In this document: positions 9,486 to 35,024 of the stretch, in pieces
Layout of the letters: every line of letters begins with the position of its first letter
Numbering within the stretch: the first letter of the stretch is position 1
Origin: Jatrophihabitans cynanchi
Lineage (GTDB): Bacteria; Actinomycetota; Actinomycetes; Mycobacteriales; Jatrophihabitantaceae
Assembly (NCBI RefSeq): GCF_027247405.1
Contig: NZ_CP097463.1
Location: forward strand, 2,480,001 to 2,544,000
Length of the DNA: 64,000 nucleotides
Direction: 5' to 3'
The notes under the pieces: generated by a model
Told to the model about the DNA's origin: nothing
Database searches by the model: none
What the model saw: the letters and a program-made list of their open reading frames with translations, nothing else
Program-made: the position numbers and the translations under genes

Positions 9486-10409
9486 TCAGGACGCGCCCGT
9501 CCCGCGGACCCGGTCCAACCAGGCCCGGGAGTCGGTGAAGTCGCCGTCGGTGCGCCCGCCCGGCACCGGGCCCTGGACGCCGTCGCGGCGCGGGTACGAG
9601 CCGAGGTAGCGCACGTCGGCGCACACCCGGCGCAGCGCGGCGATCGCGTCGCCCACCCGCTCGTCGCAGATGTGCCCCTCGCAGTCGATGGAGAAGCAGT
9701 ACTGGCCGATCCGTCCCTTGGTCGGCCGGGACTCGATGCGGGTCAGGTTGACGGCGCGGGAGGCGAACTCGGTCAGGATCTCCAGCAGCGCGCCCGAGTG
9801 GTCCGCGCGCAGGTAGGCGACCAGCGTGGTGCGGTCGTTGCCGGTGCGTGCCGGCGGGGCGGCCGGGCGGGTGAGCAGCACGAACCTGGTGACCGCGCCG
9901 GGGTTGTCGGCGATGTCGCGCGCGAGCGCGGTCAGGCCGAACAGTCCTGCGGCAACCGGCGCGCTGATCGCGGCGTCGAACTCGCCGGCGGCCGTTGCCT
10001 GCGCTCCGCCGGCCGTCGAGCCCACCATCGCCACCTGGGCGCCGGGCAGGTTAGCCTGCAGCCACCGGCGAACCTGCGCCTCGGCGTGCGGGTGCGTGGC
10101 CACGGTGCGGACGTCGGCCAGCGCCGTCCCGTCCCGGGCGAGCAGGTCGAAGCTGACCGGCAGGTACGCCTCGGCCGCGATCACCAGCGGTTCGCCGCCC
10201 GCCAGTTCGTCCAGTGTCGCCGGCACCGCGCCCTCGACCGAGTTCTCCAGCGGCACCAGCGCGCCGTCCGCCGCGCCGGAACGCACCGCGTCGATCGCCG
10301 AGGTGACGGTGGCCATCGGTTGCAGCGTCGCGCCCGCGGCCGCGTCCAGCCCGAGCAGCGCGGCGTGCGCGAAGGTCCCCTCGGGGCCCAGGAAGGCGAG
10401 CGTGCTCAT
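9486..10409 (-). CDS. pheA: Prephenate dehydratase
   Basis: Converts prephenate to phenylpyruvate in phenylalanine synthesis; 307 residues, cytoplasmic. The N-terminus LAFLGPEGTFAH and the catalytic motif TRF (in NPGAVTRFVLL) mark the dehydratase domain (about residues 1-185). A C-terminal ACT domain (about 200-280) contains GALLEILTEFASRAVNLT and ESRP, the Phe-binding feedback element. The ATG at 10409 has the ribosome site GGGAGGAC. Immediately upstream is a large nested inverted repeat (10427-10496). hppD and the aromatic aminotransferase are 2-5 kb away, giving an aromatic amino-acid neighbourhood. Confidence 0.95.
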   Translation of the reverse strand: MSTLAFLGPEGTFAHAALLGLDAAAGATLQPMATVTSAIDAVRSGAADGALVPLENSVEGAVPATLDELAGGEPLVIAAEAYLPVSFDLLARDGTALADVRTVATHPHAEAQVRRWLQANLPGAQVAMVGSTAGGAQATAAGEFDAAISAPVAAGLFGLTALARDIADNPGAVTRFVLLTRPAAPPARTGNDRTTLVAYLRADHSGALLEILTEFASRAVNLTRIESRPTKGRIGQYCFSIDCEGHICDERVGDAIAALRRVCADVRYLGSYPRRDGVQGPVPGGRTDGDFTDSRAWLDRVRGTGAS

Positions 10410-10426
10410 GGCCGCCGTCCTCCCCC

Positions 10427-10496
10427 GTTGAGTGGCGGGTTAGCGGCTGAGTGGCGGGTTACAGGTCGCCACTCAACGCGAAAGCCGCCACTCAAC
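10427..10496. repeat. Nested inverted repeat with four GTTGAGTGGCGG-type copies
   Basis: Two direct copies, GTTGAGTGGCGG (10427-10438) and GCTGAGTGGCGG (10446-10457), are followed by two inverted copies, TCGCCACTCAAC (10466-10477) and CCGCCACTCAAC (10485-10496). Copies 1 and 4 pair perfectly over 12 bp and copies 2 and 3 nearly so, giving one long stem with an internal loop. It fills the gap between the DUF4446 gene and pheA, both on the minus strand. It could be a terminator for the first, a leader structure for pheA, or a REP-like mobile palindrome. Confidence 0.8.
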
Positions 10497-10515
10497 GAGA
10501 ACGGGAGCATGGTGG

Positions 10516-11064
10516 TCAGCCGGCTTTGCGGGCGAGCAGCCCGCCGCGCTGCTTCTGCAGGGCGGACGTGACGGCCTGCGCCTCCTCGGGCGAGAGCTCG
10601 TGCTCGCCCTTGCCCGCGGCGACGCCCTTCGCGTACACCCGGGTATCGCTCTGCCCGGCGAGCGCGCTGATCGTCACCCCGTCGCCGCGCTCGTCCAGCA
10701 GTGCGAGTGAGAAGGACATCCGCCCGGACACGCCGGGGAACGCGTCGTAGCGCACCAGCGCCACGTGCTGCAGCACGCCCGCGACGTCGGCGGCACCGGC
10801 CTGCGCCGCGGCGAGCGCCTCCTCGCGGGCACTGGCCGTGAACTCGCGCAGCTCGGCCAGTTCCTGCAGCGCTGCGGTGGTCAGCTCGGCGTGCCGGCTG
10901 GTGGCCTCGAGCAGTGACTCCTGCCCCTGCTCACCCCGGGTACCCCGCGCGAGCAGCGTCGTCGCCCGGCGCACCTTGGCAAGCGTCCGCAGCGCGCAGT
11001 ACGCCGCGACGAGGGCGACGTAGGCCATGATCAGCGCGAAAACCGCGACGTAGGTGGTGGACAT
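10516..11064 (-). CDS. DUF4446 family membrane-anchored protein
   Basis: A 182-residue protein with an N-terminal membrane helix (residues about 4-25, VAVFALIMAYVALVAAYCAL), then a basic segment and a predicted coiled coil (about 45-90, LLEATSRHAELTTAALQEL). The C-terminal conserved block VALVRYDAFPGVSGRMSFSL with ALLDERGDGVTISAL is the DUF4446 hallmark. The function is unknown. The ATG at 11064 was chosen; a GTG two codons upstream (11070) is also possible. It is probably co-transcribed into pheA, subject to the palindromic element between them. Confidence 0.85.
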   Translation of the reverse strand: MSTTYVAVFALIMAYVALVAAYCALRTLAKVRRATTLLARGTRGEQGQESLLEATSRHAELTTAALQELAELREFTASAREEALAAAQAGAADVAGVLQHVALVRYDAFPGVSGRMSFSLALLDERGDGVTISALAGQSDTRVYAKGVAAGKGEHELSPEEAQAVTSALQKQRGGLLARKAG

Positions 11065-34996: not shown

Positions 34997-35024
34997 GATC
35001 GGTTAGCGGGGGGGTTCACCGATC
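34997..35024. repeat. Hairpin 3, loop conserved with hairpins 1 and 2
   Basis: Stem GATCGGT (34997-35003) with ACCGATC (35018-35024). The loop TAGCGGGGGGGTTC again contains AGCG, a G run and TTC. It is the third of three hairpins within 134 bases. Confidence 0.7.

Follow-up and report, generated by a model that had tools for sequence, protein, structure and literature searches.

The window, a stretch of 64,000 nucleotides of the Jatrophihabitans cynanchi genome (positions 2480001-2544000 of its single 4,515,412-bp contig), contains a palindromic element in the 106-bp gap between a DUF4446 gene and pheA, both on the minus strand (Table 1). The original prediction described this element as two direct and two inverted copies of a short unit. 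All four were found, two of them exact and two with one mismatch each, and the naming of the flanking genes was borne out by Pfam. The fold of the element is far more stable than expected from dinucleotide shuffles (z = -8.1; 0 of 200 shuffles equally good), and an Rfam search of the window returned a tRNA only. Within the window alone, the 12-mer unit with two mismatches allowed gave 9 matches against 10.7 expected, which is no excess. A link had also been drawn through GGTTAGCGG to a third hairpin at 35001-35009. The match is real (2 in the window against 0.25 expected, a number reached by 3 of 100 shuffles), but neither a tolerant model nor the other scans of the window found an element there, and the link looks like coincidence.

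Table 1. Features at the locus (window positions) and the two enclosed nuclease-like genes (genome positions, last two rows)
Feature	Position	Strand	Remarks
Subfamily-A element, complete, 72 bp (two direct + two inverted units)	10426..10497		
Unit 1, GTTGAGTGGCGG	10427..10438	+	exact
Unit 2, GCTGAGTGGCGG	10446..10457	+	1 mismatch
Unit 3, GTTGAGTGGCGA on - strand	10466..10477	-	1 mismatch
Unit 4, GTTGAGTGGCGG on - strand	10485..10496	-	exact
DUF4446 gene, upstream; stop codon 18 bp from element	10516..11064	-	PF14584 E 7.9e-30
pheA (prephenate dehydratase with ACT domain); ATG 16 bp from element	9486..10409	-	PF00800 E 2.1e-46, PF01842
Nuclease-like gene between A copies	1,828,542-1,829,662		
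Nuclease-like gene between B copies	3,112,535-3,113,590		

The unit is not unique in the genome: a genome-wide search found GTTGAGTGGCG 63 times (32 + 31 occurrences, against 2 + 1 for a reversed control), and all 63 sites lie inside elements. A similarity search combined with a core-pattern search identified 37 elements in the 4.5-Mb genome, which share a design of two direct and two inverted units of about 19 bp with the core AGTGGCG and rigid spacing; every one of the 37 has exactly 2+2 units. Subfamily A consists of 24 copies, including that of the window, with GTTGAGTGGCG units at 19-bp spacing, and subfamily B of 13 copies with units CCGAGTGGCGA or similar at 20-bp spacing. A pattern of two direct cores plus one inverted core occurs 36 times on the forward and 35 times on the reverse strand, against 0 + 0 in the control. 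As the B copies were gathered by a pattern requiring three exact cores, a search for one exact direct pair was the fairer test for orphans. It returned 37 forward and 35 reverse pairs, all within elements (72 of 74 halves exact, the other 2 with one mismatch each), and no orphan half-elements, although it would miss a copy damaged in both halves. The 37 copies were also used to build a covariance model, which gave 77 strand matches over the whole genome at E<=0.01, three above the 74 expected from 37 elements on two strands. The tolerant model, applied to 864 kb of the genome (the window and two spaced 400-kb samples), recovered the window copy alone (next match E 0.27), and no decayed copies were found there. 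Among unlinked copies there is no near-identical pair (best 94%), and therefore no sign, in these alignments, of recent movement.

The copies are strongly constrained at their cores and variable between them. The positions of the four cores differ in 2 of 1036 cells over the 37 copies, while the sequence outside the cores has a mean pairwise identity of 69% (A) and 56% (B), and that between units one of 63% and 56%, respectively. The central 10 bases are 64% identical in A (25% composition baseline) and 40% in B (31% baseline). Paired positions beside the cores covary both in J. cynanchi and in a second genome of the family, G003, the score being reached by 0 of 500 shuffles in either, although the covarying J. 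cynanchi pairs 4/71 and 24/51 merely separate A from B. At the seven core positions themselves no compensatory change was seen in J. cynanchi, and one was seen, in one copy, in G003. Since the cores are invariant with hardly any compensatory change, sequence-specific recognition fits better than a mere requirement for a hairpin.

Each of the column pairs 14/59 and 33/40 of the A alignment holds a G-G or C-C mismatch in 19 of 24 copies. Covarying changes preserve this mismatch, and it looks as though the inner palindrome were able to flip. A simple orientation meaning of these mismatches does not fit the free combination of inner and outer orientations (5, 5, 4 and 2 of the 16 classifiable among the 24 A copies). 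Outside the elements, the left flank is mostly pyrimidine-rich and the right flank purine-rich when the 37 copies are compared by eye. No direct repeat resembling a target-site duplication was evident by eye on either side of the 24 A or the 13 B copies, and a DDE-type MITE was set aside on this ground.

With a crude codon-usage gene caller, 34 of the 37 J. cynanchi copies were called intergenic, 32 of them in tandem or convergent gaps (22 tandem, 10 convergent and 2 divergent, with 3 copies inside an ORF near its 3' end), and 16 of the 22 tandem copies lie no more than 20 bp from the upstream stop codon. Together with the very stable fold and the covariation beside the cores, this placement would suit elements retained as hairpins, between cistrons or at 3' ends, that stop transcription or shield the ends of mRNAs. 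We nevertheless consider this explanation improbable, as compensatory change is nearly missing from the cores and no U-tract was seen by eye in the flanks of any of the 37 copies. Moreover, only 16 bp separate the window element from the start of pheA, a short space in which to fit a promoter behind a terminator, and the hairpin explanation does not account for the gene enclosed by elements that is described below. In G003, 5 of 28 copies occupy divergent gaps (18 tandem, 4 convergent, 1 undetermined), and therefore the near-absence of divergent gaps in J. cynanchi is not general. A pure terminator was rejected for the lack of a visible U-tract, the divergent G003 copies, the 16 bp to pheA and the unexplained gene.

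In 60 listed relatives, among which there is no genome of the same genus, the exact core pattern was not found; this negative is misleading, because cores differ by genus. The covariance model matches 8 of 24 genomes of the family, J. cynanchi included, and at the level of the order 9 of 200 genomes at E<=1e-5, namely those eight and, weakly, G533 from another family; as a limited number of candidates was scored in each genome, its counts per genome are lower bounds. The model is also incomplete, being negative in G010 despite GAATGG elements there: a geometry scan of 400 kb of that genome gave seven matches, of which three are clear 2+2 GAATGG elements and the rest appear by eye to be G+C-rich noise. 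Related genera present the same layout with cores of their own (GACTGG, GAATGG, CGGTGG). By eye, the core is GACTGGCGA in G003, in arrays of mostly about 3+3 units, GAGTGGC in G016, CGGTGGCC in G004, GAGTGGTCAC and GAGTGGTGCG in G007 and G013, and GAGTGACGG in G012, where the inner palindrome differs; G009 has GAGTGGCTTG or GAGTGGCTAG and, in addition, a second element type. In G003, all 27 scorable arrays (of 29 loci; L266 and L290 lack a centre under the exact pattern) have an inner gap of 8 bp, and 25 of the 27 have a first spacing of 19/19; the other two lack one exact core and so read 39. Two of 28 G003 loci chosen by score are orthologous in position to J. cynanchi elements, and it would seem that some positions are shared by the two genomes while the core has changed throughout.

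One of the arrays in G003, with core GACTGGCGA, lies in the DUF4446-pheA gap itself. This location, the same in both genomes, is what could be said for the original suggestion that the palindrome is a leader element regulating pheA. However, the same gene pair lies about 22 bp apart in G006 and G007, with no element between, and the other 36 J. cynanchi copies adjoin other genes. We give a leader function the least credence of the explanations weighed here, and an attenuator of pheA was discarded on the same two grounds.

Farther afield, GAGTGGC palindromes are not generally enriched over a reversed control in 394 genomes (20 against 13 in J. cynanchi itself), and a class-wide meaning of the core was rejected. 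A pattern scan of genome contigs returned 86 stretches; among the 80 of them that were examined, most of the single matches look like chance or other repeats. In Agrococcus (L100, L107, L108, L111, L166, L167 and L174) there are multi-unit arrays of direct and inverted GAGTGGCG with a 20-bp period that resemble those of G003, and no relative of the nuclease-like protein described below was seen in the 8-kb loci. On a contig binned as a Thermoleophilia MAG, a copy (L149 2777-2838) looks orthologous by its flanks to the J. cynanchi element at 775574. As the exact pattern matches nowhere else in that bin, the contig was probably misbinned and strayed in from a near relative. In G533, L294 holds at about 1500-1565 a palindrome headed by GTTGAGTGGTGG whose inner hairpin is a different one, a possible distant relative. 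Aeromicrobium flavum (L110, L114, L123, L143) has a dispersed repeat of another make, with repeated hairpins of CCGAGTGGCGCA and GCCCGCCACTCGG units and a short internal T-rich stretch. Also noticed were several hairpins of short tandem GAGTGGCG-type repeats with a period of about 9-10 bp in the Anaerolineae MAG SLGK01 (e.g. L106, L127, L144) and in the Flavobacteriales MAG JAHBUK01 (L104, L132, L140, L165). The exact pattern found no elements in viral contigs.

In two places in the J. cynanchi genome, a pair of elements about 1 kb apart encloses one gene (Table 1). The two genes are paralogs with 51% identity, and A copies enclose one while B copies enclose the other; the A-flanked paralog is closer to a member from G003 (57% identity) than to its B-flanked counterpart. 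Profile searches identified six strong members of this gene family in five genomes (J. cynanchi twice, G003, G004, G009 and G012), all six between two elements. As the member loci were fetched for holding an element, only the second, opposite element is an independent result. By size and ORF lists there is one gene between the enclosing elements, and in 2 of the 6 members its 3' end reaches a few bases into one of them. In an AbiE type IV toxin-antitoxin pair, by comparison, an AbiEii (DUF1814) toxin gene would stand beside the AbiEi-like gene. The enclosing copies are very alike and have the same orientation in 4 of the 6 sandwiches (L359, L360, L356 and L357, by eye), and each enclosing pair in J. 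cynanchi is more alike (95.8% and 94.4%) than any other pair of its subfamily. On contig 239 of G009, two elements with about 1 kb between them (L245 508-580 and 1501-1573) enclose an alpha/beta hydrolase gene instead, so that 6 of the 7 single-gene sandwiches noticed hold the nuclease-like protein. The G012 sandwich (L357 3234-3307 and 4190-4263) has an outer unit of GTTGAGTGACG type and an inner palindrome ATGATCAGAGACGG, and its gene belongs to the same family.

No further member was found in 864 kb of the J. cynanchi genome (the window and spaced samples; best E 0.047, two profiles) or in 400 kb of G010, and none was seen in the fetched stretches of G007, G013, G016 and G010, a small part of each genome. 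In 280 kb of G003 there is one remote relative (E 2e-9; L371 12924-13940), which is longer and has no element in its 20-kb stretch; therefore, it is the close members only that are bound to elements. The L371 protein combines a start that looks winged-helix-like by eye with a DUF559-like end, and is perhaps a free-living form of the family.

The enclosed protein is about 280 residues long (range about 265-300); its first part is AbiEi-like and its second part putatively Vsr/DUF559-like. AbiEi profiles match the first part in all six members (best E 4e-10), the match running from 43 to 154 of the 184 profile positions and from 82 to 212 of 280 protein residues. It begins about where we take the winged helix of AbiEi to end, and the protein thus has no recognisable DNA-binding domain. 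Eight positions are invariant in the six members (E177, D210, E221, N/Q223, H227, R232, D236 and R239), and the second part carries the motif D-x(n)-E-x-N/Q-G-x2-H-x(n)-R-x(n)-D-x2-R. We take the invariant E, D, E-x-N/Q, H, R, D and R residues to be a nuclease active-site motif, and DUF559 and MTES_1575 are Vsr-like families of PD-(D/E)XK nucleases. The DUF559 match is below threshold (best 19.6 bits against a cut-off of 20.6, E 8e-4; 2 of 6 members), and that to MTES_1575 is weak (E 0.006) and below the Pfam cut-off. The shared motif and the weak Pfam matches liken the second part to these nucleases, and its sequence makes it a putative Vsr/DUF559-like PD-(D/E)XK nuclease. Unlike them, the enclosed protein stays below the Pfam cut-offs, is joined to an AbiEi-like part and, in all six close members found, sits between palindromic elements. 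No relative was found in the PDB at E<=10 or among viral proteins, and the 4 members tested had no NCBIfam match. Literature searches found no paper with AbiEi and DUF559 together, and nothing relevant-looking among the top matches listed for the sequence words.

The palindrome had been likened to REP/BIME elements, with an associated transposase to be looked for. The likeness holds in the broad sense of a dispersed, mostly intergenic palindromic repeat, here of 37 copies, but the transposase was not found: Y1_Tnp (PF01797) has 0 matches at E<=0.01 in the J. cynanchi genome, while a control search detected the domain in 6 of 14 genomes, and a different gene takes its place. The 37 copies also lack a GTAG tag, both ends of the element being paired. 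A classical REP/BIME mobilised by a RAYT, that is, by a Y1 transposase, would account for intergenic palindromic repeats with inverted units, yet with no Y1_Tnp and no tag it is very improbable. In the GTAG/CGTC REPs described by Di Nocera in 2013 (PMC3733652), as in our elements, extragenic palindromes are repeated mostly between tandem or convergent genes; the differences, as far as that account goes, are that ours have no unpaired GTAG or CGTC at one end, a larger multi-unit design and a flanked gene. The phyla listed in that paper do not include Actinobacteria, a word absent from its main text.

The closer parallel lies in REPINs and their RAYTs, for which the text of Bertels and Rainey 2011 (PMC3116915) describes three flavours of REPIN and three RAYTs, each RAYT having a cluster of one flavour next to it. 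Common to both systems, on that description, are short palindromes with conserved ends, a variable spacer and compensatory changes, and several flavours in a genome, each clustered beside its own enzyme gene. In J. cynanchi this linkage takes the form of A copies around one paralog and B copies around the other, with a different class of enzyme: an AbiEi/DUF559-like protein instead of a Y1/HUH tyrosine transposase. Our elements further differ from the published ones in having 2+2 (J. cynanchi) or mostly about 3+3 (G003) units at 17-, 19- or 20-bp spacing, in that no singlets were found in J. cynanchi, and in numbering 37 against the many hundreds of copies of that paper. Given repeats that enclose one uncommon gene family, subfamilies matched to paralogs and no Y1 transposase, we infer a REPIN-like system with an unrelated, nuclease-like partner.

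The same protein also admits a different reading, in which the elements are host-level binding sites, serving as a four-site operator or to structure the chromosome, and the protein between them acts as a repressor or organiser, not as a mobilising enzyme. In the account of AbiEi antitoxins in PMC7319586, Rv2827c, a member of the AbiEi family, binds its own promoter at four 23-bp inverted repeats, and our protein matches AbiEi profiles. It is on account of such inverted-repeat arrays being bound by AbiEi-type proteins, and of finding neither orphan nor decayed copies, that we retain this reading as a serious, if unlikely, alternative. The rigid unit spacing, the variable spacers between invariant cores and an inner/outer asymmetry whose orientation has by eye no evident tie to gene direction point the same way, and host-level selection would explain invariant cores and a lack of decayed copies no less well than spreading elements would. 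On the other hand, the elements stand on both sides of the gene, not at its promoter alone, and the nuclease-like motif is invariant. The published AbiEi systems, as described there, also differ in that our sandwich has no second gene inside, our protein has a nuclease-like C-terminal part and no recognisable winged-helix N-terminus, and our sites are dispersed over the genome. With dnaA at 2.44 Mb, the elements are not strongly patterned along the chromosome in their distance from it (KS p 0.057; one arm carries 22 of the 37), and a site organising the origin or terminus was rejected on that basis.

We therefore favor, as the probable explanation, a REPIN-like population of elements whose units are recognised by a cognate, non-RAYT, AbiEi/nuclease-like protein that spreads or homes the copies. 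This reading builds on a repeat family of rigid geometry, with invariant cores, variable spacers and lineage-specific core sequences, on the sandwiches, and on the match of two subfamilies to two paralogs. The window element would be one member of this population of short non-coding palindromes, and its four units would serve as recognition sites for a protein of about 280 residues encoded elsewhere in the genome, by a gene that has copies of its own element subfamily on either side. Most likely this protein would bind paired units, either in duplex form or extruded as a hairpin, and may nick or cleave at the bound units, after which element copies could be copied or homed into intergenic DNA. 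Lying between two direct element copies, the gene itself may be copied or homed likewise. Transcribed copies would form strong hairpins and perhaps affect mRNA ends as a side effect.

More tentatively, and at somewhat less than an even chance, the system may represent a new "repeat plus enzyme" class, selfish or domesticated, in which multi-unit nested palindromes of an actinobacterial lineage are spread and maintained by an AbiEi-like/Vsr-like nuclease recognising a lineage-specific core of its own, while core and enzyme co-evolve in each genus (GAGTGGCG, GACTGGCGA, GAATGGGC, CGGTGGCC). The nuclease would then nick the extruded hairpin or home into element copies, and its gene would be carried between two direct copies of its own target. 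The REP and REPIN families with which we compared the elements are either linked to tyrosine (HUH) transposases or lack a known enzyme. If the proposal is true, a REPIN-like life style would have arisen independently with another class of enzyme at its centre, and a single purified protein and a DNA of 72 bp would allow a test of what moves and maintains bacterial palindromic repeats.
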